Assembly: GCF_002563635.1 (NCBI RefSeq)
Contig: NZ_PDIZ01000001.1
Span: forward strand, 2,480,001-2,544,000
Source: Bacillus sp. es.036
Lineage (GTDB): Bacteria; Bacillota; Bacilli; Bacillales; Guptibacillaceae
DNA: 64,000 nt
Reading direction: 5' to 3'
Part shown: positions 26,203-56,526 of the stretch, piece after piece
How positions within the stretch are numbered: position 1 is the stretch's first letter
How the letters are laid out: each line of letters starts with the position of its first letter
Notes under the pieces: generated by a model
Told to the model about the DNA's origin: nothing
What the model saw: the letters and a program-made list of their open reading frames with translations, nothing else
The model's database searches: none
Position numbers and translations under genes: made by a program

Positions 26203-26217
26203 ATCGGAGGTGAAATA

Positions 26218-33600: not shown

Positions 33601-33704
33601 CGATGATTTTATCCGCCATTTTGATCGTCCTGATCATTCTTCAATATGCTTTAAACAAACGATCATGGACACAAATAAAAAAGGATAAGGCCCATGAAGC
33701 CTAA
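30666..33704 (+). CDS. esaA: Type VII secretion protein EsaA (YueB)
   Basis: 1012 residues. One N-terminal transmembrane helix (LKLILVTAIILVLPLIYFTS), a very long extracellular coiled-coil region (about 100-820) and a C-terminal membrane part with about five helices from residue 841. In the middle is a Pro/Glu-rich linker (about 370-400; PDDPELPEVPENPEEPVEP). Between about 480 and 545 there is a leucine/glutamate heptad region (LTKELEKLTKENETLSSQ). This is the architecture of YueB, the SPP1 phage receptor of B. subtilis. It starts with GTG 30666, overlapping the essC stop by 4 nt. Confidence 0.92.
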   Translation: MKEKKSILKLILVTAIILVLPLIYFTSIGENPMKKKESATKTIAVINEDTGTEEDEELVKFGNDVPPLLKSESQYNWEVVGRSAAENGLNNQKYDAVVYIPSTFSEKILTYDENQPEQTKLAFTVQNQLNALNKEQVLLELEQATNRVNTKMSSLYWNYVSNDLVNIQQEFDQIVEKEKAFQQTMLSFYTPSSKDLAEQMEQQVSMLANLQSTSENAEERAADQTDTMEGFQENLANFVTYTNDYREYQQKQQEVLEQIQADSVNSISQATEMPQPMFMNNKELFEGKSESVLENMSQVENQMIQQQEMFAGLKEVRYNQVERQVNDFYTLQERILNYYQQLKDSMILNELEGEIATLSKKLGDGDEIIIPDDPELPEVPENPEEPVEPSEEEDPTEDLTKLLKSLQDEEPPVIDEDAETNGSTPVDLSEERNELLAIAQEVVALQETLIALEQPKVEDLQTASTTLLTLNDRIKQTEQQLLAKEGGENPLDGELEELKKLIESLTTENKSLLEQIEELTKELEKLTKENETLSSQKETLMEQVDVLKESNTELKDLLVMVSDKIYRISSGINEKENAILASPALSQARKDTLSVYFQRPIKGTNLTDVLQYYAYLDRYEATLNSMLSKNNVQETVLQDNDLREEVNSMLELTNKEEGQWDAVGSQVPKTSDALTTLQDDFTVFLADYKNVLDTQQAKLLESLNGIEEEADNVLNQMQQSQQQTPDKTAQGTNIISNHDQVKSQMGSLYDWMDSIEDSQSEILSYTDELQSRVAEVQTDANTLNNKWETNVASTLMIRDDVFNVMGNAFVDGQSNEYVYDFLATPIDVTGSVFTDKKDTNLPPVVILFIILLSSLLIGYASYYFQHGPWWLQSILFLMLTSIVGLVISLYSLSIYPLGNDRSMEWTIFTILLLLSCAALIRVAFMSHHLIGWLVTVGLVALFVTPLLALSTPNFSFTDPMSRVYMSIQNSTQTLFSEGAMILSAILIVLIILQYALNKRSWTQIKKDKAHEA

Positions 33705-40906: not shown

Positions 40907-40932
40907 TTCTATTAAGGCGTTTTAGAGAAAGC

Positions 40933-40978
40933 ATAGGTAAAGGCCGAGTTTCCAATTAGAAACTCGGCCTTTACCTAT
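40933..40978. terminator. Long perfect hairpin between convergent genes
   Basis: A 20-bp perfect stem (40933-40952 with 40959-40978) with loop CAATTA, between the COX1-like gene and the end of the GH32 gene. There is no strong U run on the plus strand. It probably acts as a bidirectional terminator. Confidence 0.75.
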
Positions 40979-41022
40979 AACGTATATACTTTCAAAGTCT
41001 CTCTCCTATTTCCGAATACAAG

Positions 41023-42522
41023 TTATTGATTAGACCAAACCGACTTCAATCGATTTATCTCCATCGAATGAATAAAACCTTCACCGCTACTGTATAACTC
41101 CAGACCATTACGATCCTCTTTCGGAAACACCAAATTTGTAAGGACCGTTTCCCCACCATCCCCAAAAATTTCAATGGAAGAGCGATCAATTAATACGGTC
41201 AACCGCAAACGTTTATGAAGAGATTCCATTTTCACTGTCTGTTTACACGCGAAAGAGGAATGAAAAGAACAATCTCCAGATCGACTTCGATCAAAGGTTA
41301 GTATTTCTGTTCCTGGATCATATTCGATGATCGTCTCTTCTTTATCAGATTTTAAGACCTTTAAGCCCACTACTTCTGATGAACCAGGATCAAGATCAAT
41401 GGTTATTGCAAGGGTGTTTCCACGAATACCAGCTAGCACATTTTCTCCTGATTGTATTTTTTGTTCTTTGAACAGGGCTAAAGGCTCTTTAATATTATTA
41501 AGTTCTGTAACAGGAAGTTGGGTAAGTTTGACACCAGCAGAGGTGGATTTCAGGAAGAGTTCTCTTGGAATTGTCATCGCGCTTCGCCAACCTTCTGTAG
41601 GCGTTTCATTCGCATAGCGCCAGTTACTCATCCATCCAATTAAAATCCTTCTCCCATCATGATCTGGTAAGTCTGACCACGTTACACCTGCATAATTATC
41701 TCTTCCGTGATCAAGCCAGCACACATGATCTGGATGATGATCGTTTCGAAACGTTTCGCCATCAAATTCACCAATAAAATATTGTGTTTTTGAACCGCTC
41801 TCAACATCTGGATGGTCTCCAAGGCTAACGATTAAAATCCACTTTTGTTTGGATGGGTCGTGATCAACTGGTAGTTTAAATAAATCAGGGCACTCCCATA
41901 CCCCCTGATGCGACCCTTCTTTCTCTCCAAACGTGCTCGCAAACTCCCAGTCGATTAAATTTAATGACGTGTAAATACTAATTGATTGCCCCGAAGCGAT
42001 GACCATGACCCAGCGATTTGTTTCTTTGTGCCAGAAAACTTTAGGATCTCGAAAATCTAGAATTCGAGGTTCTGAAAGGACCGGATTCCCTTTATAAAAT
42101 GTCCAGCTCCTCCCATTATCGCTGCTGTAAGCTAGACTCTGCCGTTGCCTTGGTCTCTCGGATCCAGGGTATGTATCCGCATGAGTGAAGATTGCTACGA
42201 GACCACTTTGCCCATTAAAGAAACCAGTTGTATCATCCCAGTCGACAACCGCACTTCCTGAGAAAATAGCCCCGTTTTGATCGGGCTTTAACGCAATAGG
42301 GAGGTGCTCCCAGTGAATGAAATCTTTACTCACCGCGTGTCCCCAATGCATCGGTCCCCACACGCTACTATAAGGATGGTATTGATAGAATAAATGATAT
42401 TCTCCGTTAAAATAAACCATCCCATTTGGGTCGTTCATCCAATTTGATTCCGGAGTGAAATGAAACTGAGGTCTATGCTTCTCTGAATAGTTGCTTCGAG
42501 GAATCACTTGTTCAACATCCAA
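41023..42522 (-). CDS. Cytoplasmic GH32 beta-fructosidase (sucrose/levan-oligosaccharide hydrolase)
   Basis: 499 residues, no signal peptide. Five-bladed beta-propeller plus C-terminal beta-sandwich. Complete GH32 catalytic triad: nucleophile D31 in WMNDPNG (28-34), D159 in FRDPK and acid/base E210 in WECPD. The second half has TEGWRSAMTIPRELFL and the sandwich ending FGDGGETVLTNLVFP. It likely hydrolyses fructose from imported fructo-oligosaccharides or sucrose. The start is TTG 42522 with GGGTG 7 nt upstream. Third gene of the lacI-yesL-GH32 operon, so induced by the same sugar. Confidence 0.92.
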   Translation of the reverse strand: MDVEQVIPRSNYSEKHRPQFHFTPESNWMNDPNGMVYFNGEYHLFYQYHPYSSVWGPMHWGHAVSKDFIHWEHLPIALKPDQNGAIFSGSAVVDWDDTTGFFNGQSGLVAIFTHADTYPGSERPRQRQSLAYSSDNGRSWTFYKGNPVLSEPRILDFRDPKVFWHKETNRWVMVIASGQSISIYTSLNLIDWEFASTFGEKEGSHQGVWECPDLFKLPVDHDPSKQKWILIVSLGDHPDVESGSKTQYFIGEFDGETFRNDHHPDHVCWLDHGRDNYAGVTWSDLPDHDGRRILIGWMSNWRYANETPTEGWRSAMTIPRELFLKSTSAGVKLTQLPVTELNNIKEPLALFKEQKIQSGENVLAGIRGNTLAITIDLDPGSSEVVGLKVLKSDKEETIIEYDPGTEILTFDRSRSGDCSFHSSFACKQTVKMESLHKRLRLTVLIDRSSIEIFGDGGETVLTNLVFPKEDRNGLELYSSGEGFIHSMEINRLKSVWSNQ

Positions 42523-42564: not shown

Positions 42565-43161
42565 TTAATTGATTTGTAGTTTACTAATTGCCTTCAGGAA
42601 CCAATAACTAATAAAGTAAGCTAGAATACTTGTAATAAAAAACAGTCCTGCTGGATTATCTAACAAGAAATAGACTGTCCCGATGGTGACAACACCAATG
42701 ATCATCGTTGAATACGGGCTTGCTACAACAAGAAAAAATGAATTTCTCACCAGTTCGTGCCACTTTGCTTTTACATGAACCATCATCGGAAATACGTATA
42801 TGGTTATCAGAATAAAAATGATGCTTAGTAAAACACTCACAATAAAAATCACCATTTCAACCACTGAGCCAGTTAGAGATACGATTTGGAAATTAAGGTA
42901 TAAAGAAAGTCCAACTAAACTCCAAATAAGGGATAAACCAAAGCTTTGTTTGAAATTCTCCTTAAATAACTTAAAGAATGTAATGAATACACCCGCTTCT
43001 CCTTTTTGAAGTTGCCACGTTCTAACAACACCGAACATAGCCGCTGTTGAAGGGAAAATCGTGATGATTGGAACGCACATAATCGCCCATATGAAACTGA
43101 GAAAGAGGAAATCCACTGCTTTTTCTAGAAAAGAAAATACCTTGTATTTATGATCTCCCAA
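42565..43161 (-). CDS. YesL family (DUF624) membrane protein
   Basis: 198 residues with five transmembrane helices: KAVDFLFLSFIWAIMCVPI, SFGLSLIWSLVGLSLYLNF and further hydrophobic segments. The N-terminal part with PSTAAMFGVVRTW is typical of YesL. This family is found next to carbohydrate ABC transporter operons in Bacillus and Paenibacillus. Function unproven. The start is uncertain: TTG 43161 follows GGGAGGAG at 6 nt, while TTG 43185 (206 aa) follows AGGAG at 9 nt. It sits between lacI and the GH32 gene. Confidence 0.8.
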   Translation of the reverse strand: MGDHKYKVFSFLEKAVDFLFLSFIWAIMCVPIITIFPSTAAMFGVVRTWQLQKGEAGVFITFFKLFKENFKQSFGLSLIWSLVGLSLYLNFQIVSLTGSVVEMVIFIVSVLLSIIFILITIYVFPMMVHVKAKWHELVRNSFFLVVASPYSTMIIGVVTIGTVYFLLDNPAGLFFITSILAYFISYWFLKAISKLQIN

Positions 43162-43197
43162 CTCACTCTCCTCCCGTCGTATCAATCTACTGTTCTC

Positions 43198-44223
43198 CTA
43201 ACATGAACTTCGTATTTCTAAGCTGGATGGCAAGCTCACACAGGAAGATTCTTTCTGCGGATTTTCTAAACGAGCGAGCAACAATTCTGCTGCTCTTTCG
43301 CCTATCTCATGAATTGGCTGTTTAATAATGGTTAAAGGTGGATTGGTTGCTTCAGTCCATTCGTAGTTATCATAGCCAATGACAGCCATCTGTTCTGGTA
43401 CTTGAATCTTGCTTTTATTTAACGTTACGACTGCTCCTAATGTTAGAATGTTGTTCCCAATCATAACCGCCGTGCATTTAGACTGCTCAAGTAGTAACGC
43501 CATGGCATTTTTGCCAGCTTCCAATGAGGCTTCATCAATCACAATCATTGATTCATCAACCTGGAGATTGTTTTCTAATAACGCATGCTTATATCCTCTA
43601 AGCCGTTCATCACTTGTCGTTAGGCCAAGTGGACCTGATATATATCCGATTTTTTGATATCCCTTCTCAATAAAGTGATTCATCGCCTCATACGTGCCTT
43701 TGAAGTTATCGACAAGCACACAGTCACAATCAATCCCCTCTGGCTTTCGATCAATGAATACAATGGGTAACTGATCTTCAAATTCTTTTAAATAGCTATG
43801 ATCCCCGTAAGTTGGAGCCATAATTAACCCATCGATCATTTGATTTTTAAACATATTGATTTGTTGAATCTCATTTTCAATTTCTTCATTTGAATTACTT
43901 AGAATTAACTGATAGCCAATTTCCTTAAGCTTTTTCTCAATGCTGTGAGCAATTGACATAAAGAAAAAACCCGAGGTATCCATTTCTTTAGCAGGAATGA
44001 TCAAACCGATCGTTTTTGAACTGCTGCTTCTAAGACTTCTAGCTACGAAGTTCGGACTGTAGTTAAGATCCCGCATAGCCTGATAGACCTTTTTCTTCGT
44101 ATTTTCAGAAACATACCTCGTTCCGTTAATCACGTGAGAAACGGTGGCCGTTGAGACACCTGCTTTTTGAGCGACATCTTTCATTTTTGAACGCATATTG
44201 CTTCCATCTTTAACGGTGCCCAT
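43198..44223 (-). CDS. LacI-family transcriptional regulator of the fructan locus
   Basis: 341 residues. N-terminal LacI helix-turn-helix (MKDVAQKAGVSTATVSHVINGTRYVSENTK) and hinge (NFVARSLRSSSSKTIGLIIP), then a periplasmic-binding-protein-like effector domain ending IKQPIHEIGERAAELLLARL. The start is ATG 44223 with AGGTGA 8 nt upstream. It is the first gene of an operon with yesL and the GH32 gene. The promoter at 44361-44389 has two LacI-type operators downstream, and identical motifs occur at the ABC transporter promoter, so it probably controls both units and itself. The inducer is probably a fructan breakdown product. Confidence 0.88.
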   Translation of the reverse strand: MGTVKDGSNMRSKMKDVAQKAGVSTATVSHVINGTRYVSENTKKKVYQAMRDLNYSPNFVARSLRSSSSKTIGLIIPAKEMDTSGFFFMSIAHSIEKKLKEIGYQLILSNSNEEIENEIQQINMFKNQMIDGLIMAPTYGDHSYLKEFEDQLPIVFIDRKPEGIDCDCVLVDNFKGTYEAMNHFIEKGYQKIGYISGPLGLTTSDERLRGYKHALLENNLQVDESMIVIDEASLEAGKNAMALLLEQSKCTAVMIGNNILTLGAVVTLNKSKIQVPEQMAVIGYDNYEWTEATNPPLTIIKQPIHEIGERAAELLLARLENPQKESSCVSLPSSLEIRSSC

Positions 44224-44281
44224 ATCTTTTTCACCTACTTATCAAATTACTCGCTCCTTTAAAGCTGCTAATCACATAACG

Positions 44282-44295
44282 CGTAATCGATTACG
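44282..44295. promoter_or_regulatory. LacI-type operator O2 at the lacI promoter
   Basis: CGTAATCGATTACG, a perfect 14-bp palindrome between the promoter and the lacI start, about 60 bp downstream of the predicted transcription start. Confidence 0.7.
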
Positions 44296-44311
44296 TTACT
44301 TTTTATAAAAG

Positions 44312-44330
44312 AAGCTCTTAAAAAGAGCTT
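44312..44330 (-). terminator. Hairpin between the two operators, possible terminator of the giant GH32 gene
   Basis: AAGCTCTT-AAA-AAGAGCTT stem followed on the minus strand by CTTTTATAAAAAG. It lies 108 nt past the stop of the giant gene and inside the lacI leader. It may be a terminator for the upstream operon or a leader hairpin. Confidence 0.45.
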
Positions 44331-44332
44331 AA

Positions 44333-44345
44333 GTAAACGATTACG
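44333..44345. promoter_or_regulatory. LacI-type operator O1 at the lacI promoter
   Basis: GTAAACGATTACG at about +10 of the predicted transcript of lacI. It matches TAATCGTTTACG found upstream of the ABC transporter operon, read on the other strand. Confidence 0.7.
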
Positions 44346-44360
44346 TATACTATAGCATTA

Positions 44361-44437: not shown

Positions 44438-47400
44438 TTAATTCTCGTTAATAATACTGGCTTTATTTAGCTGATAGATCGCTAAAGATTTCACGGTTAC
44501 TTCACCATCGATTGCGTACAGCTCTAGCTGATCACTCGTTAGATTTGGAAAGATTTGATCTGAGAACACAACCTGACCATCATTCGCGAAAACTTCAATA
44601 GAAGATCGATCAACAAGTAAGTGGAGTTTTACTGAATCATTCGAAGGCATCATAACTGCTTCATGCTTCGCACCAAAAGACTGGCTAAAACTCGTATCAC
44701 CAGACTTAGAACGATCTAACGATAACGTAGCATTTGTCATGTTGTAACTGACTTCTGTGAATTCGTCATGACCTACCCGAACTTTAAAACCAAATTCTTT
44801 CGCTGTTGATTGATCTGTTTGAAATTCAGCAACAATTTCTAACGTATCACCTTTTATATCCGATAATAGATTCTCGCCAGCTACCACAACTTCATTCGTC
44901 CAATTACGTTCTTCCCCTCTCAAACTTCGAAGCTCACTGACAGGAGTTTGAACGAGGCGAACACCTAAATTCGAAATACTTTTCAAATTTAATTCCTTTG
45001 GGATTGTCATTTTGCTTCGCCAAATAGAAGTTGGAATCGCTTGACCATACTCCCAATTATTCATCCATCCCATCGCAATTCGACGTCCATCAGGTACATG
45101 ATTAAAAGTTAGCGGAGCATAATAGTCAGCCCCATGATCGGCATATAGTACGGTACTCGCTAGATTGTCATTACGAAAGGTCGTTCCATCAAAATCACCA
45201 ATAAAATATTGCACACCTGATCCACCAGCAGGAGAACCTTTACTAAGACTTACCTGCATCACCCATTTGGTGTTGTTTGGATCACCATCCACTGGCAATG
45301 GGAAAAGATCTGGCACTTCCCAAACCCCTTCATGGTATCCTTGATTTTCACCAAAGTCGCTCGCAAATGTCCAATCTTTCATGTCCTCCGAATGGTAGAT
45401 TCGAACAAATTGCTTTTGAAATTTATCTTCCACTGCAAGCAGCATCACCCATTGATTGGATTCTTCATGCCAGAATATTTTCGGATCTCTAAATACTGAA
45501 AATTGGTCGATGTTTGTTAAAACAGGGTTTCCGGCATACTTCTGCCATGTTCGACCGTTATCATTGCTGTAAGCGAGACTTTGACTTTGATTTCCGCCTT
45601 TTTCATGCGTAAACATCGCCACCATGGCTTCTTCCCCAAACCCGGCCGTATTGTCTTCATCCACAACAACGCTACCTGACCATATAAATCCGTTCTCATC
45701 TTCTTCTAGCGCAGTCGGTAGACGTTTCCAGTTTACCAAATCCTTACTAACCGCATGCCCCCAATTCATTGGTCCCCATGTGACGCCAGTTGGATTATAC
45801 TGATAAAACACATGGTATTCTCCGTTATGATAAACAAGCCCATTAGGGTCATTCATCCAATTTTTCTCGGGAGTATAATGAAACTGTGAACGGTACTTTT
45901 CGTACCGCTCACTTGTTAAAAGATCCTCTTCTGTATTGAATACATGAAAGTCATCAACATTGATATGGCCCCATCCGCCGGTAGCCTTGTCCACCACCTT
46001 GATGAATACCTCTTCACCTATATAAGAAGAAGCGTCCCAGTAAACCCGCTTATACTGTTCACTCTCTGTACCGGTCGATTTAAAGAGCTCCTTCCCATCA
46101 GCTGCATTTACGAGAGAAACATATAAGTGATCACTACTTTTCCCTCCTCCAATCAAGAAGTCAATCCACCCACTTCCATAGAGTGTAAAGGGCTCTGATT
46201 GCATTTCACCTATTTGAGCGTCTCCACCATCTTTGAAGTTCCACAGGTGATAGGCGTCTTGATGATTGAAGCAACATTCCCACTCCCACTCTTCATCCTG
46301 TGTGACATCTTGGTCACTAAAGGCCTCCCCGGTAACCGTCCACCCGCTCAAGTCTCCCTTCTCAAAATTGGAGTTCGCTATCGTTACGTTATTCGGAGGC
46401 TTCACAGGAGCATTCACATCATCAATACTAATGTGCCCCCAAGAACCTTTGGAACGATCAACAACCTTTAGATAAACTTGCTCTCCGATGTAATGAGAAG
46501 CATCCCACTTAACTCGGGTATAGCCTTCCTGGTTCCCCCCACTTACTTTCATTAGCTCTTTCCCATCTGAACTTCTTACTAGTGCAACGTAAAGGTTATA
46601 AATATCGTTCCCTCCAGAAACGAGGAAATCGATTTGTCCATTTCCTCCAAGCGTGAATTTTTGAGAACGTATCGAACCAGTCTCTGCATCATCACCGTTA
46701 TGAACACCATAAAGATGGTAGCGACCATTTTGATTAAATGGACCTCCCCAACCCCAATCATCAGCAGACGTTACATCAAGATCGCTAAAGGAATCGCCTT
46801 CCATAACGGTCCAACCCGTTAAGTTACCTTCTTCAAAATCATGATTCACTAACTCATCATGAGCGGGCTCGTCAACGACGGCAATCGCACTCGTTGCCGT
46901 ATGACCTCCGTCTCTTGTTTCAGCTTTAATCGTAGTAGCACCTTCTGAATGAGCCGTAACTTTTCCATTCACAACAGTCGCAACGCTTGGATTACTTGAA
47001 GTCCATATCACCTCTTTATTCGTTGCTTGAGCTGGCGCCACTTCAGGTGTTAGCCGTTCTGTATCTCCAGCAATTAATTCTAGCGTATCTGGATTGAGTG
47101 ATACCCCAGTAGCGTTCACCTTTTCATACGCAGAGTTCATCTCCCAAACCTGTAATGATTTTACAGTGACGGATTCACTTTGCTCATTCGCCCAGAGCTG
47201 CACACCTTTCGCATCGTCTCTTGTCGGGTAGGCTCTTGTGGTTAACCCTTTTTGTTCATTTAAATAGGCATTGATTTCAGAACGATCCACGTACACATGG
47301 AGATTGATCGTCTCTGAATCAGTATCTACCTCTCCACCTTGGTACCATTTTTCCACATCTGGATCGAGACTTGATTTCGTTCGGTTCACCCAAAATTCCT

Positions 47401-50400
47401 TGCTACTTTCTTTGTAATACACAATTGTTTCTTCTTCCCCATTCGGTGAACGTCTTAAGCTAATTCCCGCTTCATTAGCGGATCCAATGTCTAGTTCTAA
47501 CTGGATTTCAAGCATGTCTCCTTCTATGTTAGATAGAAGTTGATTCGCTTCTTCCATGGACGTGTCCGATGTCAGATTAATAAGCTCTTCGCCTCGTAAT
47601 TCGTCCAACTCTCGGATCGGCTTCATCCCTAACTTACCATCACCTCGATAAAAAACCTCTGTTGGTAAACCATAATTGTGAGCATATCCAGCATCATAAT
47701 CGTCGTTTGCCGGACGCCTCCCCTGCGTAATACTATGAATAACGGTTCTTCCATCAGGCGTTACCATTCCAGCTGGTCCAGTAAAATGGTCTCCTACATC
47801 GAGTAATTGAGGCGCGTCATTATCTGGGGTAAACTTAGCTGTCTCAGGATTCCATGTCCCAATCCAATAGTACGTATACCTCGACTGATACTCTTCTCTT
47901 TCCATTTTGGCAGGGTTTATCAAGAAGATATGTTTTCCGCTATCTCCTAATGGCAGCAAAATCGGTAGCTCCCAAACGCGTCCAGTTTCTGGATAGGTTC
48001 CATAATCTCCAACAAATAAGTCTCCTTCGAAGGTCCAATCTTCAAAACTAGCATCCTTTGAAGAATACACCAGAGCGGTACCTCCAACGGCTGTTCCATC
48101 AGATCCTTCTTTACCAGAAGTAACTAGCATGTACCAGGTATCACCATCTTTAAAGACGTAAGGATCTCGAAATTCACCCATGATCCCCTGTCCTTCTTCT
48201 TGATCTAGAATCACTTCTGAATTCTTTTCCCAACGGTTAAGATCGTTATCCCCATCCTGCAAAAAAGTACTTCTTGCTAAATTAATGCGCTGATTAGGCT
48301 GATCACGATCATCACCCGCTGTGTAAAAGATGACAGGCACACCGTTATCATCGACAACAGTACCACCCGCCCACGCCCCCTCGGGATCAACATCATATCG
48401 CCCAGGGATAACGGCATCGTCAACATCTCTCCAATGAACCATGTCATCACTTACAATATGCCCCCATCGGATATGATTCCAGTATGGTCCTCTAGGATTA
48501 CTCTGATAGAACACATGATATTGACCATTAAAATATATGGGACCACCTGGTTCATTTCCCCAATGATTTGGAGGAGACATGTGAAACTGGGGGCGATGTT
48601 GATCGTTAGCTAAAAGACTTCGATCGGTTTTTACATCAGCGGTTGGTAAATTACCATTTAAAGCGCTTACAAAATACTCGTAGGAATCTTTTACATTCCC
48701 AGCACTCAAGGCCTGATTGTAAATTTTCACTTCATCCATAAGCCCACTAAACATATTTAAATCAAAGCCATATAACCACATACCATCATTGTTTTTCCCA
48801 ATCAACAAATCTCTTACACTCGGTTTAATCGCAGATCCAGCATCAAATTTTCGTGATGTTACCTTTTCACCATTCTGGTATAGAATAGCTTCTCCAGTTG
48901 TGCTATCGTACGTTGCGACGACGTAAGACCACTCATTTAAAGGGAGTAGTGTATCTGACATCACTTCATGCCAATCGTCTCCAGTACCAAACTGTAACCC
49001 CCACGTGCCATGTCGAAAATTCCCTAGTATGAATCCTTCTTTCTTTTCCCGGTTATGCTGATTCACGATTGCAGATAACCGACCTTCGTCTCCATGTTCA
49101 AAATTTCTTGGAGCTACCCAGGCTTCAACCGTTAGCGCTTCTTTAGGCGCTGGTAGTTTCGTAGGGCTATGCGTAATCCAGGTAGAGTACCCATCAAATA
49201 ATAAAGCACCGTTTGAAATGCCGTCTTTCCACAGTGGATCCTTGGCCTCCTGAAAGGCTCCCTTACTAAGATGGTAATCAATTAAGTTGGTTTCACCTGT
49301 GACTTGCTCTACAGTATCCTGACCAGTACCTTCATCTAAACTCCAGTGAGCCATTAACCCATCAGTGAAAGGTGAACTGGTTGTTCGAAAGTCATCAACA
49401 TTGATATGTCCAAACGCCCCTTTAGCATTATCGACGATTTTAATAACCACTTCTTCACCAATGTATTCTGAAACATCCCAATAAACGCGCTGGTACTTTT
49501 CCGTATCTCGTCCGGTTTCTTTTCGCAACTCTTTTCCATCAGACGTTCTTACGAGAGCAGCATATAGATTCTCCTCGTCATTCCCTCCTCCAATAAGAAA
49601 ATCGATTCCGCCATTTTGATCGATCGTAAATGGCTCTGAGTGCAGCTCACCTACTTGATCGTCTCCACCATCGTTAAAATTCCATAAATGGTAGCGCCCC
49701 TCATGCAAAAATTCATCGCCTTCACTCCACTCTTCTTCATGAACAAGGCTCTCCGGACCAAACGCATCTCCGCTTACAATCTCCCATCCCCTTATTTCGT
49801 AAGGAGTTAGTGCCGTATATTCGAAATCATGATTATAAATAGAAGGCTCCACATGGTCATGTAAAGAAGGGGTCGCAGGAACATTCACATCATCAAGATT
49901 GATATGCCCCGTTGTCGTTGAATCAACAACTTTAATCCTAACGACTGTACCTATATGAGCAGAGGCATCCCAACTCTTCTTGGAATATGTATCTGTCCCA
50001 GTCCCTGTTTCCTTCATTAATTCTACTCCGTCTGATTCTCTAACGAGAGAGATCGATAAGTGATCCGCATCTGAATCTCCCCCTGTAAGAAAATGAATCT
50101 GACCATCTCCCCCAAGAGTAAAGGTTTCAGACTGCATGACCCCAACTTTTGAATCGTCCCCTTGCCCTCCCCATATATGCCAGAAGTTCTTTTGATTAAA
50201 GGTTTGTTTATCCCAATAGTGAGATTCATCTGTTACATCTTTCTCATTGAACGTGTTACCACTTACAATTTTCCAACCAGACAAATCCCCTGTTTCGAAA
50301 CTTGGGTTTGCAATGGTCGTTTGGGCATGAACAGGGTTCGAAATACTCATTTGCAACATGCTACTTATGACTAATAAGAAAGTCAGAGAAACCAATTTCA

Positions 50401-50419
50401 ACCTACAGCGATTGAGCAT
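44438..50419 (-). CDS. Giant secreted two-headed GH32 fructanase with LamG, BIG2 and four sugar-binding-like modules
   Basis: 1993 residues. Order: signal peptide 1-33; modules A (35-181) and B (192-346); LamG 353-575; GH32-1 about 608-940 with its beta-sandwich to 1095; BIG2 1102-1184; modules C (1190-1338) and D (1346-1493); GH32-2 about 1512-1805 with sandwich to the end. Modules A-D are about 150-residue repeats of one family (N.DFE.G.L.GW ... Y..V.WDAS.YIGE ... GHIN.DD); they resemble CBM38 inulin-binding modules, an inference. GH32-2 has the canonical triad: D1524 in WMNDPNG, D1645 in FRDPK, E1701 in WEVPD. GH32-1 has HWGNEPGG, so Glu623 replaces the nucleophile; D752 (FRDP) and E817 (WELP) remain. 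There is no sortase or SLH anchor, so it is probably released. Last gene of the transporter operon; the ribosome site (AAGGGAG) is rather far, 12 nt, from ATG. Confidence 0.9.
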   Translation of the reverse strand: MLNRCRLKLVSLTFLLVISSMLQMSISNPVHAQTTIANPSFETGDLSGWKIVSGNTFNEKDVTDESHYWDKQTFNQKNFWHIWGGQGDDSKVGVMQSETFTLGGDGQIHFLTGGDSDADHLSISLVRESDGVELMKETGTGTDTYSKKSWDASAHIGTVVRIKVVDSTTTGHINLDDVNVPATPSLHDHVEPSIYNHDFEYTALTPYEIRGWEIVSGDAFGPESLVHEEEWSEGDEFLHEGRYHLWNFNDGGDDQVGELHSEPFTIDQNGGIDFLIGGGNDEENLYAALVRTSDGKELRKETGRDTEKYQRVYWDVSEYIGEEVVIKIVDNAKGAFGHINVDDFRTTSSPFTDGLMAHWSLDEGTGQDTVEQVTGETNLIDYHLSKGAFQEAKDPLWKDGISNGALLFDGYSTWITHSPTKLPAPKEALTVEAWVAPRNFEHGDEGRLSAIVNQHNREKKEGFILGNFRHGTWGLQFGTGDDWHEVMSDTLLPLNEWSYVVATYDSTTGEAILYQNGEKVTSRKFDAGSAIKPSVRDLLIGKNNDGMWLYGFDLNMFSGLMDEVKIYNQALSAGNVKDSYEYFVSALNGNLPTADVKTDRSLLANDQHRPQFHMSPPNHWGNEPGGPIYFNGQYHVFYQSNPRGPYWNHIRWGHIVSDDMVHWRDVDDAVIPGRYDVDPEGAWAGGTVVDDNGVPVIFYTAGDDRDQPNQRINLARSTFLQDGDNDLNRWEKNSEVILDQEEGQGIMGEFRDPYVFKDGDTWYMLVTSGKEGSDGTAVGGTALVYSSKDASFEDWTFEGDLFVGDYGTYPETGRVWELPILLPLGDSGKHIFLINPAKMEREEYQSRYTYYWIGTWNPETAKFTPDNDAPQLLDVGDHFTGPAGMVTPDGRTVIHSITQGRRPANDDYDAGYAHNYGLPTEVFYRGDGKLGMKPIRELDELRGEELINLTSDTSMEEANQLLSNIEGDMLEIQLELDIGSANEAGISLRRSPNGEEETIVYYKESSKEFWVNRTKSSLDPDVEKWYQGGEVDTDSETINLHVYVDRSEINAYLNEQKGLTTRAYPTRDDAKGVQLWANEQSESVTVKSLQVWEMNSAYEKVNATGVSLNPDTLELIAGDTERLTPEVAPAQATNKEVIWTSSNPSVATVVNGKVTAHSEGATTIKAETRDGGHTATSAIAVVDEPAHDELVNHDFEEGNLTGWTVMEGDSFSDLDVTSADDWGWGGPFNQNGRYHLYGVHNGDDAETGSIRSQKFTLGGNGQIDFLVSGGNDIYNLYVALVRSSDGKELMKVSGGNQEGYTRVKWDASHYIGEQVYLKVVDRSKGSWGHISIDDVNAPVKPPNNVTIANSNFEKGDLSGWTVTGEAFSDQDVTQDEEWEWECCFNHQDAYHLWNFKDGGDAQIGEMQSEPFTLYGSGWIDFLIGGGKSSDHLYVSLVNAADGKELFKSTGTESEQYKRVYWDASSYIGEEVFIKVVDKATGGWGHINVDDFHVFNTEEDLLTSERYEKYRSQFHYTPEKNWMNDPNGLVYHNGEYHVFYQYNPTGVTWGPMNWGHAVSKDLVNWKRLPTALEEDENGFIWSGSVVVDEDNTAGFGEEAMVAMFTHEKGGNQSQSLAYSNDNGRTWQKYAGNPVLTNIDQFSVFRDPKIFWHEESNQWVMLLAVEDKFQKQFVRIYHSEDMKDWTFASDFGENQGYHEGVWEVPDLFPLPVDGDPNNTKWVMQVSLSKGSPAGGSGVQYFIGDFDGTTFRNDNLASTVLYADHGADYYAPLTFNHVPDGRRIAMGWMNNWEYGQAIPTSIWRSKMTIPKELNLKSISNLGVRLVQTPVSELRSLRGEERNWTNEVVVAGENLLSDIKGDTLEIVAEFQTDQSTAKEFGFKVRVGHDEFTEVSYNMTNATLSLDRSKSGDTSFSQSFGAKHEAVMMPSNDSVKLHLLVDRSSIEVFANDGQVVFSDQIFPNLTSDQLELYAIDGEVTVKSLAIYQLNKASIINEN

Positions 50420-50516: not shown

Positions 50517-52736
50517 TTAAAACCCAGGCTTCATCTCCCAAACTTCCATCGACTTCACTGTTACCGAATCATTCGCCCATATTTCTAATCCTAATGCTTC
50601 GATATCAGGGTATACTCTCGTCGTTATACTTTTTAATTCATTGGCATAGCACTCGACGATCGAACAATCAACATAAATATGAAGTTTTAACTGCTCTCCA
50701 TTTAGAAGAAGCTTTCCACTTTGAGAGCGGGACTCGTTTGAGTCCTCTGTTTTCTTTTTAACATTTAACGTCTCTTCTGAACTGTTATAATAAAGGACCG
50801 TTTCGACATTCCCACCATCAGACTTTAAAACCTTTACACCATATTCACTCGCAACGTCACCTTGAAATTCAACATAGATTTCAAGCATATTTCCTTTCAC
50901 ATGAGCTAAGATGTCATTAGTTTCTTTAACGGATTGATCTTTTAACGAAACGAGTTTTTTCTTGCGTAACTTTATTAATTCTTCGATCGGCTTAACACCT
51001 AATCTTCCATCGTCTCGTAACCACAGTTGTACAGGAAGTCCCCCATTATGTGCCCATCCTGCTTCATATTCATCTTTAAGCGAACGCCTTCCTTGAGCGA
51101 TCGTAAACAAAAGCAAGCGCCCCGTTTTAGGATCAACCATGGCACTTGGTCCTGTAAAATGAAAATCTCCTACATCAATAAGCTGCGGTTCTTTCTGATC
51201 TGGTATAAAGCGATAACGCTGTTTATCCCATGTCCCAATCCAATAGAACACTTCTACATCGGCATTTCTTCCAACAGGACTAATGATAAATAGATGCTTT
51301 CCCTTTCCAAGCGGAAGTAAAATCGGCAGTTCCCACACTTCACCTAAGAAAGGATACTCCTGATCTTTATCATCGTAAAGAAGACCTTTGCATTCCCAAT
51401 CCACTAAATTATCAGAAGTGAAAAGAATCGCAGCTCCACTCACGCCTTCTATTCCAGTGCCGACGATTTGGTACCAGATCTCTCCTTCTTTCCATACAAA
51501 AGGGTCTCGAAATCCGTCATGATGCAGACCCATATGATTAGGCTGAATCGTTACGGGTACGGGATGTTTTCTCCATTTCTTTAAACCGATATCATGATTT
51601 TCCTTATACGTACTTCTCGCTAATCCTGTCATCTGATTTGGCTTCTTTGATGAATGGCCTGCTGTAAAAAACAAAACGGGTAATCCATCTTCATCATAAG
51701 CGGCATTTCCTGACCAAATGCCGTCTGGAGCTAAATCATCTGCTTCAGTTTCAATGGCAATAGGTAAGTCGCGCCAATGCACCAGATCATCACTAACCCA
51801 GTGTCCCCACTGAATATTGCCCCAATAAGGACCCTGTGGGTTATGCTGATAAAACAAATGGTATTTCCCTTTGAAATAAAGAGGCGCATGCGGCTCATTC
51901 ATCCAATGACCAGGTGGTGTTAAATGAAATTTTGGGCGGTGCGGGTCACGATCATAAACGCTTCTGTCGATCGCAATGTCTCGATAAGGTAAGGGCGGAA
52001 TCTCTCCTTTATAAGGTAAAAGGTGATCTTTAAAACTCTTTGTTATTTCTCCTTCACTTAGGGATCGGTTATAGATTTTAATATCATCTAGTAAACCACT
52101 AAACATGTTTAACGAAAACACGTTTTCAATCGTCAGCCCATCATTACTTTTACCGATCAAAAGCGCCTCATGACTAGCAGCCATCGACACATTTTTACCG
52201 ATTGTTTTCTCGGAAACCTTTTCACCATTTAAATACAATGTGATTTGTCCTTCTTGACCGTTAAAACTTGCCGCTAAATGCGACCACTTTAACTTCGGTA
52301 TCGGAGAATTCTCAGCCCACACTTCGACCCAGCCACCATCTATACCAATCTGAAATCCCCATTTCCCATGCCTATGAACACCTAAAATAAATCCTTCATT
52401 TAATCCTCGATTATGTTGATTCACAATACCCGTCAGTCGCTCATCCTCAATTCCACCAAATGAACGTGGAGCTAACCAAGTCTCAATGGTAAACGCTTGA
52501 TCGATTGAACGAATGCCTTCTTTTCGTTCAATCCAAGTTGAATAACCATCAAATACAAGAGCATGTCCATTTAATCCGCTACGCCACTGTGGTTCATCTG
52601 CAGGTAAAGTGGACCGCCGCTCATTAAATACATAGTGAATGACATCTTGATTAGAACCGTCATGGACAATACTTCCACTCCCTTCTGAAAATGCCCAATG
52701 CGCTACCAATGATTTTTTTAACTTACTATTCGCCAT
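50517..52736 (-). CDS. Cytoplasmic LamG-GH32 protein with NEPH in place of NDPN
   Basis: 739 residues, no signal peptide. N-terminal LamG/concanavalin-like domain (about 8-235; LVFDGYSTWIERKEGI, IVNQHNRGLNEGFILG, LYLNGEKV), then a GH32 propeller (about 265-600) and beta-sandwich. The nucleophile motif is WMNEPHAP (Glu at about 281) instead of WMNDPNG; FRDP (about 410) and WELP (about 469) are present. Its LamG-GH32 part is a paralogue of residues 353-1095 of the giant protein. Cytoplasmic location implies action on imported oligosaccharides. A TTG at 52739 precedes the preferred ATG 52736, with GGGAGTG 8 nt upstream. Fourth gene of the transporter operon. Confidence 0.85.
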   Translation of the reverse strand: MANSKLKKSLVAHWAFSEGSGSIVHDGSNQDVIHYVFNERRSTLPADEPQWRSGLNGHALVFDGYSTWIERKEGIRSIDQAFTIETWLAPRSFGGIEDERLTGIVNQHNRGLNEGFILGVHRHGKWGFQIGIDGGWVEVWAENSPIPKLKWSHLAASFNGQEGQITLYLNGEKVSEKTIGKNVSMAASHEALLIGKSNDGLTIENVFSLNMFSGLLDDIKIYNRSLSEGEITKSFKDHLLPYKGEIPPLPYRDIAIDRSVYDRDPHRPKFHLTPPGHWMNEPHAPLYFKGKYHLFYQHNPQGPYWGNIQWGHWVSDDLVHWRDLPIAIETEADDLAPDGIWSGNAAYDEDGLPVLFFTAGHSSKKPNQMTGLARSTYKENHDIGLKKWRKHPVPVTIQPNHMGLHHDGFRDPFVWKEGEIWYQIVGTGIEGVSGAAILFTSDNLVDWECKGLLYDDKDQEYPFLGEVWELPILLPLGKGKHLFIISPVGRNADVEVFYWIGTWDKQRYRFIPDQKEPQLIDVGDFHFTGPSAMVDPKTGRLLLFTIAQGRRSLKDEYEAGWAHNGGLPVQLWLRDDGRLGVKPIEELIKLRKKKLVSLKDQSVKETNDILAHVKGNMLEIYVEFQGDVASEYGVKVLKSDGGNVETVLYYNSSEETLNVKKKTEDSNESRSQSGKLLLNGEQLKLHIYVDCSIVECYANELKSITTRVYPDIEALGLEIWANDSVTVKSMEVWEMKPGF

Positions 52737-52756
52737 CAATCACACTCCCAATTTGT

Positions 52757-52806: not shown

Positions 52807-54405
52807 CTATTGATTTTCTTTAAAGCGATCCAAACCTTCCTGGTAGATTTCCATTAAGCGACTTAGACCCATATCTTCAAGTTGCTTCTGGTAGCTATCC
52901 CACTCTTCGTTTACGCCGCCTTCCATTAACCACTGAGCTTTCTTCTGATTCGTAAATTCTTTAATGTCTACTTCTAGACGGTTAATTTCATCTAGTTCAT
53001 CAGGACTAAAGAAAATTTGCGGGTAATTCTCATCTTCAAGATAAGGCGCATAGATCGAATTCAAATCTTCCAAACGCTGTTTTGCACGAGGTTCCATTTC
53101 AACTGTTTCTTCAAAGTCTTCTTTCAAAATCGCAACCGGTCCATTTGGTGCAACTTTTTGTCTTAGTTCACCCATTACGACGTCGTCAGGCTGTTCTTTT
53201 AACACGAGTTTCCCATCTTTTTCTTCAAAAATAGTGCCAATTGGTCCCCAGTTAATTTGAGCTGACATCTTCGTTTCATATAACTGATCAACCCAACGCA
53301 TCGTAATTTCTGGATTTGCATTTGCCGAAGTAATCGCAAACTCTCCACGAGAGTAATCAGAATAATTCGATCGACCGACAACCTGATCTCCATTCGGACC
53401 TTCAAGCGGTGGTAAAAGAACATAATCATCTTTCAATTCTGGGCCAACTACTTCTTCAGATTCCCACCAAATATAAGATCCGTATTTTTCGTTTTTTCCT
53501 TTAGCGAAGTACTGAGAGACATCTTGAGTAAATGATTCCTTATCAATCAAGCCTTCTTCCATCCACTGATGATAATAGTCGATGGCTTCTTTATACTCCG
53601 GCTGAATAGCTGTATAGATCACTTTTCCATCTCTTACAATGCGATGATCGACGTTATCTGGCATATTAAATGCTGCAAACATATCGCCGAAATTTCCAGT
53701 CCAGAAGTTGAACATGAAACTTAACGGAACTTCATCTTGTTTACCATTTCCATTTGGGTCTTTTTCTTTAAAGGCAACAAGAACATCATGATACTCATCA
53801 AGCGTCGAAGGCATTTCCAAGCCTAGCTCATCTAACCAGGTTTTATTAATGGACATAAAGTTTGGTACAGCTCCAAGTCCAGCTTCTTCAGCACGAGGTA
53901 ACGTATAAATATGTCCATCAGGAGCGGTTACCATGCTCTTTAGTTCAGGGCGTTTCTCAAACAATTTTTGAATATTAGGAGCATGCTCTTCAATTAAATC
54001 TTCAAGAGGAATCAGCGTACCGTTTTGTCCATACTTCACAATGTCAAGATCTGTGAATTTAGCCGAATAAAACGCATCGGGCAAGTCACCGCTTGCAAGC
54101 ATCAAGTTTTTCTTTTCTTCATAACCGTCATCTGGAATGTTACTCCATTCAATTTTCACATTCGTCTCATCTTCTAACGTATTGAAAATTTCCATCTCAT
54201 CGTATTTTGGGGCAAGTGGTGCTTTTGGCGATACAAATTCCAGGGTAACTTGTTCGTCAACAATTGGAAGTCCTTCTTTATTAAACTCAGCTGATTCAGC
54301 CTTCCCATCAGAACTACTATCTTTCGAAGAACAAGCACTTAATACAAGAATAAAACAGAGCATTAAACATATGAACGGAAAAGCCCAACTTTTTCGTTTA
54401 CCCAT
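52807..54405 (-). CDS. Extracellular solute-binding lipoprotein of a sugar ABC transporter (LplA-like)
   Basis: 532 residues. Lipoprotein signal with lipobox LSAC at about 22-25 (FICLMLCFILVLSACSS). The mature part is a large bilobed sugar-binding protein: FYSAKFTDLDIVKYGQNG, IYTLPRAEEAGLGAVPNFMSINK, DPNGNGKQDEVPLSF (a calcium-loop-like segment) and WDSYQKQLEDMGL at the C-terminus, as in LplA/YtcQ/YesO-type proteins. The gene lies next to LplB- and LplC-like permeases in a fructan locus, so fructo-oligosaccharide binding is inferred. GGGGGG ribosome site before ATG 54405. Confidence 0.9.
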   Translation of the reverse strand: MGKRKSWAFPFICLMLCFILVLSACSSKDSSSDGKAESAEFNKEGLPIVDEQVTLEFVSPKAPLAPKYDEMEIFNTLEDETNVKIEWSNIPDDGYEEKKNLMLASGDLPDAFYSAKFTDLDIVKYGQNGTLIPLEDLIEEHAPNIQKLFEKRPELKSMVTAPDGHIYTLPRAEEAGLGAVPNFMSINKTWLDELGLEMPSTLDEYHDVLVAFKEKDPNGNGKQDEVPLSFMFNFWTGNFGDMFAAFNMPDNVDHRIVRDGKVIYTAIQPEYKEAIDYYHQWMEEGLIDKESFTQDVSQYFAKGKNEKYGSYIWWESEEVVGPELKDDYVLLPPLEGPNGDQVVGRSNYSDYSRGEFAITSANANPEITMRWVDQLYETKMSAQINWGPIGTIFEEKDGKLVLKEQPDDVVMGELRQKVAPNGPVAILKEDFEETVEMEPRAKQRLEDLNSIYAPYLEDENYPQIFFSPDELDEINRLEVDIKEFTNQKKAQWLMEGGVNEEWDSYQKQLEDMGLSRLMEIYQEGLDRFKENQ

Positions 54406-54504: not shown

Positions 54505-55422
54505 TTATCCTTTAATACTTCCAATTAAAGCTCCTTTCACAAAGTACTTTTGGATGAAAGGATAGAGTACGAGTAGCGGGATCGCCGCAACAATAATGAC
54601 ACCATATTTGATTAAATCAGCAATTCTTTGCTGAGCAGCAAACGATTCTACATCGCCAACCATACTGGCAGAAGCTTCGTTTTGAATCAGGATGGATCTT
54701 AGAATCAGCTGTAACGGATATTTATCTTCGTTATTTAGATAAATTAAAGCATCAAAGAACGAGTTCCAGTGCGTGACGGCATAAAACAATACCATTACAG
54801 CAATAATCGGTTTAGATAGCGGCAAAACGATTTTTAAGAAGAATTTCGTATTTGAACACCCATCCATTTTGGCTGATTCTAACAATTCGTCTGGGATCGT
54901 CGATTGAAAGAATGTTCGTGCCACAATCAGATTCCAAACCGCAACCGCCTTAGGAATAATGAGGGCCCACATCGTATCAACCATCCCAAGGTTTTTAACA
55001 ACTAAATAGGTTGGGATTAATCCCCCAGAGAAAAACATAGTAAAGACAAACAAGATCATGAAGAAATTTCTACCTACTAAATCTTTTCTCGAAAGCGCAT
55101 AAGCTGCCATAAGTGTTAACGTAACATTCACTAATGTTCCAACCACGGTGTACAACACCGTATTTTTGTAACCTGTCCAGATCCGATTATCCTGGAAAAT
55201 TCGTTCATATCCTTCAAACGTAATCCCCTGTGGCCAAAACCATACGTCACCGTTATAGACGCTATCAGGATTACTAATTGAAGCGATGATAATAAAATAA
55301 AGTGGGTACAACACAACGAGTGAAAGTGTCGTAAGAAAGAGAAGATTGATGAGATCAAATATCTTATCCTCTTTCGATTTTCTTGACCATAACTTTGATC
55401 GATTCATTACAAATTGAGTCAT
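54505..55422 (-). CDS. Sugar ABC transporter permease, LplC/YtcP-like
   Basis: 305 residues, six transmembrane helices. The EAA loop is seen as IPDELLESAKMDGCSNTKFFLKIVLPLSKPI (about 190-220), the contact site for the ATPase. The N-terminus has the LplC-type LYPLYFIIIASISNPDSV and the C-terminus FIQKYFVKGALIGSIKG. It pairs with the permease gene 13 bp upstream. No ATPase gene occurs in the operon; a shared MsmX-type ATPase is the likely partner. Confidence 0.9.
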   Translation of the reverse strand: MTQFVMNRSKLWSRKSKEDKIFDLINLLFLTTLSLVVLYPLYFIIIASISNPDSVYNGDVWFWPQGITFEGYERIFQDNRIWTGYKNTVLYTVVGTLVNVTLTLMAAYALSRKDLVGRNFFMILFVFTMFFSGGLIPTYLVVKNLGMVDTMWALIIPKAVAVWNLIVARTFFQSTIPDELLESAKMDGCSNTKFFLKIVLPLSKPIIAVMVLFYAVTHWNSFFDALIYLNNEDKYPLQLILRSILIQNEASASMVGDVESFAAQQRIADLIKYGVIIVAAIPLLVLYPFIQKYFVKGALIGSIKG

Positions 55423-55435
55423 CTCTTACTCCCCC

Positions 55436-56392
55436 TTACCATAGGCCTGAACCGGATAATTTCTTGGCAGCCCTATTTACTGCCCATAACAAGATAAAGT
55501 TAATGACGGCATTAAACAGTCCAACCGCTGCAGCAAAGCTGTACTGAGCTCCCTGCAAACCGACTTTATACACATAAGTTGGAATAATTTCCCCTGCTGA
55601 AACGTTTAACGGCGTTTGCATTAAATACGCTTTTTCAAATCCAATGTTCATGAGATTTCCTACTGAGAGCACTAATAAAATCATCGCCGTAGGTAAGATC
55701 GCTGGAATATCAACATGAAGAATTCGCTGCCACTTATTAGCGCCATCCATAACCGCTGCTTCATGAACTTCAGGACTCACACCAGCTAATGCAGCAAGAT
55801 AAATGATCGCTGCCCAACCTGTTTCTTGCCACAATCCTGAAGAAATATAAAGTGGTTTAAACCAACCTGCCTGTGACATAAAGTGAACTGGTTCGGCGCC
55901 AAAGATCATGAGGAAATTGTTAATTAAACCGTTTGGCGAGAAAAACACGTACACCATACCTACCAAAACAACAACCGAGATAAAGTGAGGGGCATAAATA
56001 ACGGTTTGTACGAATTTTTTGTAACGTTGATTTTTTAACTGGTTTAAGAGAAGAGCAATCATGATGGGTAACGGGAAGCCAAATAATAACTGCAACACAC
56101 TGAGCTCGAGGGTGTTCTCTAACAAAGTCCAGAACTGGAAGGAATTAAAGAAACGTTCAAAGTGTTCAAAACCGACCCATGGACTTCCTGAAACCCCCAA
56201 TGTGGGCATGTAATCTTGAAAAGCAATGAGTACGCCATACATCGGAACGTAGTGAAAGACAATGAAGTAAATTAGAGTAGGAAGTAAAAATAAGTACAAC
56301 TCATAGTTATGTAAAACCTTTTTCCAGGAGCTATTGACCTTTGGGACACTACGGACATTTCTTCTAGGTAACGCTTTAAGTTTCGTCTCCAT
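55436..56392 (-). CDS. Sugar ABC transporter permease, LplB/YteP-like
   Basis: 318 residues, six transmembrane helices; first gene of the transporter operon. Family stretches: YELYLFLLPTLIYFIVFHYVPMYGVLIAFQDY-type start (about 30-61), and the EAA loop AGVSPEVHEAAVMDGANKWQRILHVDIPAILPT. The C-terminus has GSGLW, common in YteP-like permeases. TGAGGAGAG lies just upstream of ATG 56392. The gene is transcribed from the promoter at 56545-56573. Confidence 0.9.
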   Translation of the reverse strand: METKLKALPRRNVRSVPKVNSSWKKVLHNYELYLFLLPTLIYFIVFHYVPMYGVLIAFQDYMPTLGVSGSPWVGFEHFERFFNSFQFWTLLENTLELSVLQLLFGFPLPIMIALLLNQLKNQRYKKFVQTVIYAPHFISVVVLVGMVYVFFSPNGLINNFLMIFGAEPVHFMSQAGWFKPLYISSGLWQETGWAAIIYLAALAGVSPEVHEAAVMDGANKWQRILHVDIPAILPTAMILLVLSVGNLMNIGFEKAYLMQTPLNVSAGEIIPTYVYKVGLQGAQYSFAAAVGLFNAVINFILLWAVNRAAKKLSGSGLW

Positions 56393-56412: not shown

Positions 56413-56435
56413 TAATCGTTTACGTAATCGATTAC
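56413..56435. promoter_or_regulatory. Double LacI-type operator at the ABC transporter promoter
   Basis: TAATCGTTTACG (56413-56424) runs directly into GTAATCGATTAC (56424-56435), the same two motif versions as in the lacI leader. Its first copy is exactly 100 bp from the matching site at 56513. Confidence 0.75.
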
Positions 56436-56512
56436 TTTTTGTGATAAAAAAAATGAATTCCCAGTGGATTATTCATCGTATCAGTCTATGATCATGAATT
56501 GAAGAATTCATT

Positions 56513-56526
56513 TAATCGTTTACGTA
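56513..56526. promoter_or_regulatory. LacI-type operator at the ABC transporter promoter, start-proximal
   Basis: TAATCGTTTACGTA at about +12 to +25 of the predicted transcript on the minus strand, placed to block elongation or promoter escape. Confidence 0.75.

Follow-up and report, generated by a model that had tools for sequence, protein, structure and literature searches.

The window analysed here is a stretch of 64,000 nucleotides from Bacillus sp. es.036 (contig NZ_PDIZ01000001.1, positions 2,480,001 to 2,544,000). This report deals with a gene at 44438..50419 of the window, on the minus strand, which encodes a two-headed, probably secreted protein of 1993 amino acids (aa) in which two domains of glycoside hydrolase family GH32 are joined in one chain, as judged from the open reading frame (ORF), Pfam matches and orthologues. 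The frame starts with an ATG at 50419, and the sequence GGGAG is present shortly upstream. The domains and the genes of the surrounding operon described below lie on the minus strand as well.

Domain layout and integrity of the two-headed protein

A Pfam search of the protein gives two N-terminal and two C-terminal GH32 domains, one Laminin_G_3 domain (LamG) and one Big_2 domain (BIG2), with total scores of 517 bits for PF00251 and 222 bits for PF08244 against cut-offs near 22. The chain begins with a stretch that by eye resembles a signal peptide (residues 1-32, 50324..50419), with a putative cleavage site after VHA. It is followed by two copies of an unnamed module, M1 (residues 33-182, 49874..50323) and M2 (residues 189-350, 49370..49855), which were delimited by module comparison. 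Pfam and alignments then define LamG (residues 353-580, 48680..49363) and the first catalytic domain, GH32-1 (residues 602-1095, 47135..48616), which is of a type with Glu as nucleophile and, from alignments and a structural model, is predicted to be endo-acting; LamG is part of a conserved unit with such domains, LamG-GH32(Glu). An Ig-like BIG2 domain (residues 1103-1176, 46892..47113) and two further modules, M3 (residues 1185-1342, 46394..46867) and M4 (residues 1343-1500, 45920..46393), lead to the second catalytic domain, GH32-2 (residues 1504-1985, 44465..45910), which has Asp as nucleophile and from Pfam and Protein Data Bank (PDB) matches is exo-inulinase-like. The four modules, of about 150 aa each, are mutually 41-54% identical. 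The architecture given in the original prediction, i.e. a single frame with two GH32 domains, LamG, BIG2 and four related modules, is thus correct, as are the positions of its NEP (622-624) and NDP (1523-1525) motifs.

Both heads carry the full acidic triad of nucleophile, Asp of the RDP motif and acid/base Glu. According to the alignments, the positions in GH32-1 are Glu623 in WGNEPGGP (nucleophile, 48551..48553), Asp752 of FRDP (transition-state stabiliser, 48164..48166) and Glu817 of WELP (acid/base, 47969..47971). In GH32-2 they are Asp1524 in WMNDPNGL (canonical nucleophile, 45848..45850), Asp1645 of FRDP (45485..45487) and Glu1701 of WEVP (acid/base, 45317..45319). Secretion, which had also been proposed, is probable from the appearance of the N-terminus, but a simple signal script found a hydrophobic run of 10 of 14, below the preset cut of 11, so that this part of the proposal stands with some reservation.

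That the frame might be an assembly artefact is unlikely, since the same unbroken chain occurs in five of the 13 other species of the genus (61 genomes searched), collinear and 93-94% identical, and two of these five genomes are single-contig assemblies. For the remaining eight species no full-length counterpart was present among the matches listed. A 75% identical copy in Litchfieldia salsa, from another family of the order (G033; L015, L078, L208), is broken into several frames, with the GH32-1 stretch remaining in one frame. The ratios of nonsynonymous to synonymous substitution rates (dN/dS) against the five orthologues are 0.04-0.06 for GH32-1, 0.12-0.15 for GH32-2, 0.06-0.10 for LamG, 0.08-0.17 for the module pairs and 0.16-0.59 for BIG2, while the signal-like region gives 0.85 to 1.6 or no ratio; the values are rough, as the stretches compared are small. 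Purifying selection acts on both catalytic domains, which look maintained.

The Glu-type head

GH32-1 alone matches both GH32 domains of Pfam (197 and 102 bits), and at the nucleophile position it has Glu623, where GH32 enzymes usually have Asp. When a nine-row alignment of LamG-GH32 proteins was compared with the named genomes, at least 593 stretches were matched, at least 572 of which encode a relative, and the best of these were followed up at 76 loci. Among the matches listed, the hosts are Bacillales including Paenibacillus, Clostridia, Lachnospiraceae, Streptomyces and other actinobacteria, as well as Haloferax, Bacteroidota and an Anaerolineae bin. An alignment of 52 rows shows no variation at the Glu, at the neighbouring Asn, at the RDP Asp or at the acid/base Glu. 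In a larger set, limited to matches of at least 500 bits and 380 aa, all 125 rows have N622, E623, Q639, R751, D752 and E817, a uniformity that is partly by construction since the profile was made from Glu rows. The motif GWMNNW was found after the acid/base residue in none of these 125 rows, nor were the broader patterns WM[NS][NS]W and [GA]WM[NSG]. GH32-1 belongs to the LamG-GH32(Glu) clade, and in a tree of 56 rows the nearest rows outside this clade carry Asp. Since the two heads fall in different clades, the view that they are unlike sites and not simple duplicates holds. An AlphaFold2 model of LamG and GH32-1 together (residues 353-1100) has a mean predicted local distance difference test value (pLDDT) of 93.2 and a predicted template modelling score (pTM) of 0.91.

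Within the Glu clade, the window's protein belongs to a subclade of 10 rows, the broken Litchfieldia copy included, which was compared with the 115 other rows; 21 positions passed the filter. Three of the residues concerned flank Glu623 within three positions. Residue 621 is Gly (8) or Gln (2) in window-type rows and Met in the others, which separates all 10 from the 115; residue 625, Gly instead of His, does the same; and Gly at 626 is shared with four other rows. Further away, residue 713 is Asn in all 10 rows and Gly or Ala elsewhere, and residue 883 is Ala in all 10 and never in the others (Ser in 109). Ala684 recurs in one other row (Ser in 105 of 115), and residue 912 is Tyr (9) or Phe (1) where 114 others have Trp. 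Together with the low dN/dS of the domain, these replacements look like changed specificity rather than decay.

Some other variants of the Glu-type site and its context were seen. Modular proteins of Paenibacillus and Cohnella (L050-L056, L065, L070) read WMNEAHAP, with the proline after the Glu replaced, and the same proline is replaced in another protein of this group, L081 (WMNESHAP). In Streptomyces (L046, L048, L049, L076, L092), two adjoining Glu-type genes have a mirrored layout, LamG-GH32-module followed by module(s)-LamG-GH32. Frames with LamG-GH32(Glu) only are frequent in the named loci.

The Asp-type head

The best PDB matches of GH32-2 are the exo-inulinases 8i12 (387 bits) and 1y4w (354 bits), followed by the endo-inulinase 3rwk (330 bits). 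Its motifs are WMNDPNGL, FRDP, WEVP and GWMNNW, which include the NDPNG, RDP and GWMNNW signatures of exo-beta-fructosidases. In the part of the domain after residue 200, 21 of the 84 Asp-type rows contain GWMNNW, 58 contain WM[NS][NS]W and 68 contain [GA]WM[NSG]; among the 23 Asp rows from two-headed proteins, GWMNNW is present in 17 and [GA]WM[NSG] in all 23. GH32-2 differs from the exo-inulinases in forming the C-terminal part of a two-headed chain of 1993 aa and in having WEVP in place of WECP; the Cys after the acid/base Glu does not strictly define exo enzymes. WEVP is present in seven of the eight chains that share the window's domain order, the one from Cohnella reading WECP, and most other two-headed relatives in which the motif was located have WECP. 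GH32-2 may be called exo-inulinase-like, and its resemblance to these enzymes suggests exo action.

Two-headed chains in related bacteria

In total, 23 intact chains with both types of head were found, in both domain orders. The window's order occurs in eight: six species of the genus, including that of the window, Metabacillus lacus (L086) and Cohnella fermenti (L180). The Asp head comes first in 14 chains, from Halobacillus, Metabacillus, Alkalihalobacillus, Paenibacillus, Bacillus sp. and others, and one further chain (L185) has the Asp head first, yet a Glu head of the window's kind. At least 36 of 397 genomes of the order have a LamG-GH32(Glu) match above 500 bits, and at least 15 of these encode a two-headed chain; both numbers are lower bounds, since at most two candidates were scored per genome. 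Within the order, such chains recur and are no exception, and the earlier statement that GH32 proteins with two catalytic domains are few should be softened.

In a Glu tree of 88 rows, L185 groups with the window's type in a clade that has a value of 100 in the Shimodaira-Hasegawa-like approximate likelihood ratio test (SH-aLRT) and adjoins one-headed Paenibacillus proteins of the layout LamG-GH32-BIG2-module (98). All 14 chains of reversed order fall in a separate clade of 42 rows (99), intermixed with one-headed rows. The Asp tree unites the 23 two-headed rows in a single clade (ultrafast bootstrap 100, SH-aLRT 99), which was kept (SH-aLRT 99) after one-headed relatives of 689, 723 and 998 aa had been added, these falling just outside. 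One Asp clade and two Glu clades imply that a single exo lineage has partners from two Glu lineages, with both domain orders represented. The trees were rooted at midpoints; cut or duplicate copies (L009, L016, L018, L031, L033) and loci L105-L176 were excluded from the Glu and Asp trees, and L045, with one stop codon, was dropped from an alignment. For the 88-row Glu tree and the later Asp tree, a random selection of the one-headed rows was used, and for the 56-row tree a random selection of both Glu and Asp rows.

No enzyme with two GH32 domains in one chain was present among the papers listed in literature searches that covered few subscription journals, and in the available parts of two papers the expressions 'GH32-GH32' and 'two GH32' refer to neighbouring or separate genes rather than to one chain. 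A comparable arrangement is that of CelA (GH9-CBM3c-CBM3b-CBM3b-GH48), described as having two catalytic domains with binding modules between them (PMC6892212), whereas both heads of the window's protein are GH32 domains.

Modules M1 to M4

For M4, taken as representative of the module, neither Pfam nor NCBIfam gives a match at an E-value of 0.1, and a PDB profile search with the module gave a best E-value of only 0.018. Among 45 module members, weak matches were obtained to NTTRR-F1 (21 members, best 0.0012), CBM_4_9 (11, 0.0048) and LTD (7, 0.0011). Across the order, a search of 397 genomes found the module in 39 at 1e-12. GH32 hits accompany it in 61 of the 77 frames with modules from the window and from named loci; of the remaining 16, some are truncated by contig ends. 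Ten further module frames (L248-L257, 857-1218 aa) all carry GH32, with the module inside and splitting the GH32 domain, the module scores being weak in L256. In Clostridia bins (L096, L097, L099 and others), GH32-less frames of several modules (739-1294 aa in the three named) lie beside Glu-type genes. The modules may have a role in fructan binding.

Relation to endo-inulinases and proposed function

The clearest clue to the activity of GH32-1 comes from EnIA, a GH32 endo-inulinase (EC 3.2.1.7) of Arthrobacter sp. S37 encoded by a gene of 2439 bp. According to the available parts of the papers, mutations E323A and E519A lower kcat and D460A abolishes activity (PMC5984348), with N322, Q339 and R459 as further positions (PMC7545266). 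A LamG-GH32 protein of Promicromonospora (L132), one of nine loci inspected, has N312, E313, Q329, R449, D450 and E509, each 10 below its EnIA counterpart, and so reproduces the spacing of all six published positions; L132 was counted from an assumed start Met (800 aa), on which the offset of 10 and the length depend and the spacing does not. None of the 125 Glu rows and none of the 84 Asp rows shows the spacing pair 136/59; 12 of the former and 13 of the latter could not be parsed. Pfam recognises LamG and both GH32 domains in L132, and in the 56-row tree it groups with the Glu rows (SH-aLRT 95) on a long branch. It aligns with LamG plus GH32-1 of the window at 28% identity over 747 columns (244 bits, as compared to 129 bits with GH32-2), and 11 of 396 genomes of Promicromonospora's order have a match at 1e-90. 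EnIA shares with GH32-1 the Glu nucleophile, an RDP-type Asp and the acid/base Glu, and its spacing and its length, to within 12 residues, suit a LamG-GH32(Glu) protein like L132. It differs in having a single head, and the window's head, besides its low identity to L132, has another spacing and changed residues near the Glu.

Fungal endo-inulinases of the INU2 type (3rwk, 3sc7) also have Glu in a WMN(D/E)PN motif (WMNEPNGL in 3rwk) and lack GWMNNW, and in the enzyme of Aspergillus ficuum E43 is given as catalytic (PMC6042768, consulted in part). They have endo loop motifs of their own that are lacking in GH32-1, and they are not among the nearest PDB chains by Glu-profile score (162 vs. a best of 272 bits), so the common Glu may be convergent. 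In plasmid records searched for an annotated Glu-type enzyme, only general names were present among the matches listed (40 of 364).

The Glu nucleophile and the absence of GWM in GH32-1, combined with NDPNG, GWMNNW and the exo-inulinase match of GH32-2, make an endo-like and an exo-acting head the likeliest pair. The protein would then be a secreted endo-plus-exo fructanase on one chain, with an endo-inulinase most likely as first head, a reading to which we assign a probability of about 0.65. The first head, LamG plus GH32-1, would cut inside the fructan chain by a retaining mechanism, with Glu623 as nucleophile, Glu817 as acid/base and Asp752 as stabiliser, and GH32-2 would act as an exo-beta-fructosidase on the newly made non-reducing ends, while the four modules and the BIG2 spacer could keep both heads on the same substrate, presumably inulin. 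The original prediction of an endo- or transferase-like step combined with exo-hydrolysis is therefore retained in its endo form.

Several observations weigh against this interpretation. The window's GH32-1 has the spacing 128/65 instead of the EnIA-like 136/59, conserved residues beside Glu623 are altered, and PTANVWGN and AVMNSYGSNP, stated as loop motifs of the fungal endo-inulinase (PMC6042768, in the part available), are by eye absent from GH32-1, these being fungal-type motifs. The link itself is indirect: that EnIA is a LamG-GH32(Glu) enzyme would follow from its published positions and not from its sequence, and the EnIA motifs as printed, WMNDEPNGL, RDF and ECMP (PMC5984348), differ from WTNEPHGL, FRDP and WEMP of L132. 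Besides the built-in part of the Glu invariance, weaker matches to the Glu profile carry Asp (e.g. L034, L073, L075, L077, L083, L088-L090), and Glu is not required for endo action, since the endo-levanase BT1760 is reported to use Asp (PMC6560043, in the part seen). Glu-type relatives without an evident signal peptide would be in an odd location for an endo enzyme; the simple script detected an extended hydrophobic stretch ahead of the first domain in 20 of 66 frames with LamG-GH32(Glu) only. As to GH32-2, its third PDB match is an endo-inulinase, GWMNNW is absent from six of the 23 two-headed Asp rows, and the Val of WEVP speaks against a plain exo activity, since a Val at this place (V234) is named among residues special to endo-inulinase in the accessible part of PMC6042768. 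The differing EnIA motif letters and WEVP have slightly lowered our confidence.

Among other explanations, a division by linkage, in which both heads hydrolyse a mixed or branched fructan, one with a preference for beta-2,6 bonds as in levan and its partner with one for beta-2,1 bonds as in inulin, would account for the replacement of several conserved residues in a GH32-1 under strong purifying selection and fits the resemblance of GH32-2 to inulinases. It is unlikely given that the characterised Glu-type enzymes in the cited papers, as far as these were available, are endo-inulinases. The same replacements at 625 and 626, as well as Ala684 at a usual Ser position, could mean that GH32-1 is no longer catalytic and serves GH32-2 as a fructan-binding domain, but retention of the three acidic residues and their Asn, Gln and Arg partners, and a dN/dS below that of GH32-2, make this highly unlikely.

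A fructosyl transferase, cyclising or anhydride-forming, that supplies GH32-2 has also been considered for GH32-1, in view of the changed residues adjoining the nucleophile and the existence of a GH32 cyclising fructanotransferase (CFTase; PMC10076258). The CFTase of Paenibacillus macerans is likewise a large GH32 protein, and the part of this paper that was available describes an N-terminal region, CBM38 (residues 32-389), of two beta-sandwich domains, a layout similar to the N-terminal part of the window's protein. However, a CFTase-like ORF of P. macerans MER 50.2 (L120, 1316 aa from stop to stop, and taken as CFTase from its layout) has a single GH32 domain with SDPNGL and no M1-M4 or LamG match in its frame, the parts of the window's protein that hold the modules have no match in that genome, and levan fructotransferase chains reach only about 60 bits with the Glu profile. 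The idea that the two-headed protein is a CFTase was dropped, given SDPNGL in L120 and the lack of a module match, and transferase action of GH32-1 is very improbable. A CFTase-like frame of 1255 aa with SDPNGL is also present at L027 (G008), and G007 has a 1255-aa frame with a GH32 match (G007:C1:973249-974718).

An endo-plus-exo fructanase would be a natural one-chain enzyme useful for the conversion of inulin and levan, and a test case for whether tethering two fructan-cutting heads yields synergy. The comparison proposes a link between the large LamG-GH32 clade and Glu-type endo-inulinases, shows the pairing of one exo lineage with two Glu lineages, and highlights an unnamed module that accompanies GH32 in most frames examined. 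It is distinctly unlikely that the window's chain type represents a new functional class, with a Glu-type site remodelled along with the pairing to the exo head and a product tailored to its partner; GH32-1 would then yield an oligosaccharide of fixed size, cut at a branch or carry out a transfer, and its product would be handed along one strand.

The surrounding operon

The genes around the two-headed protein form an operon on the minus strand with the order: two ATP-binding cassette (ABC) permeases (ORFs at 55436-56392 and 54505-55422), an ABC transporter extracellular solute-binding protein (52807..54405), a LamG-GH32(Glu) protein of 740 aa with WMNEPHAP (50517..52739), the two-headed protein, a LacI-type regulator (43198..44223), a DUF624 protein (42565..43185) and an Asp-type GH32 protein of 499 aa (41023..42522), those other than the permeases and the two-headed protein being identified by Pfam. 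The 740-aa and 499-aa enzymes have no signal peptide by eye, and the former is probably cytosolic. The genome as a whole has seven GH32 catalytic domains above the cut-off. Oligosaccharides and fructose released outside may enter the cell through the operon's ABC transporter, and the two smaller GH32 enzymes would complete breakdown in the cytosol, under control of LacI.

Pattern searches revealed operator-like TAATCGWTTACGTA sites at 56413..56526, next to a promoter-like TTGACA-17-TACAAT (56573-56545, minus strand), and similar sites before lacI at 44280..44347, next to TTGACA-17-TATAAT (44389-44361, minus strand). With up to two mismatches, TAATCGWTTACGTA has 10 matches in the window, eight of which are in these two promoter regions, compared to 0.9 expected for the whole window; the clustering is partly by construction, as the pattern was derived from these sites. 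The region's two best promoter-like matches (12 and 11 of 12) also fall in these two regions, while promoter-like matches over the region are fewer than in shuffles (26 vs. 39.7). The sites are candidate operators. A 20-pair hairpin at 40932-40979, downstream of the gene for the 499-aa GH32 protein, is likely to be the operon terminator. Elsewhere in the window, at 24940-33704, genes for WXG100 (type VII) secretion, YukC and an FtsK/SpoIIIE ATPase, precede a frame of 1012 aa for which Pfam gives no match at 1e-5.

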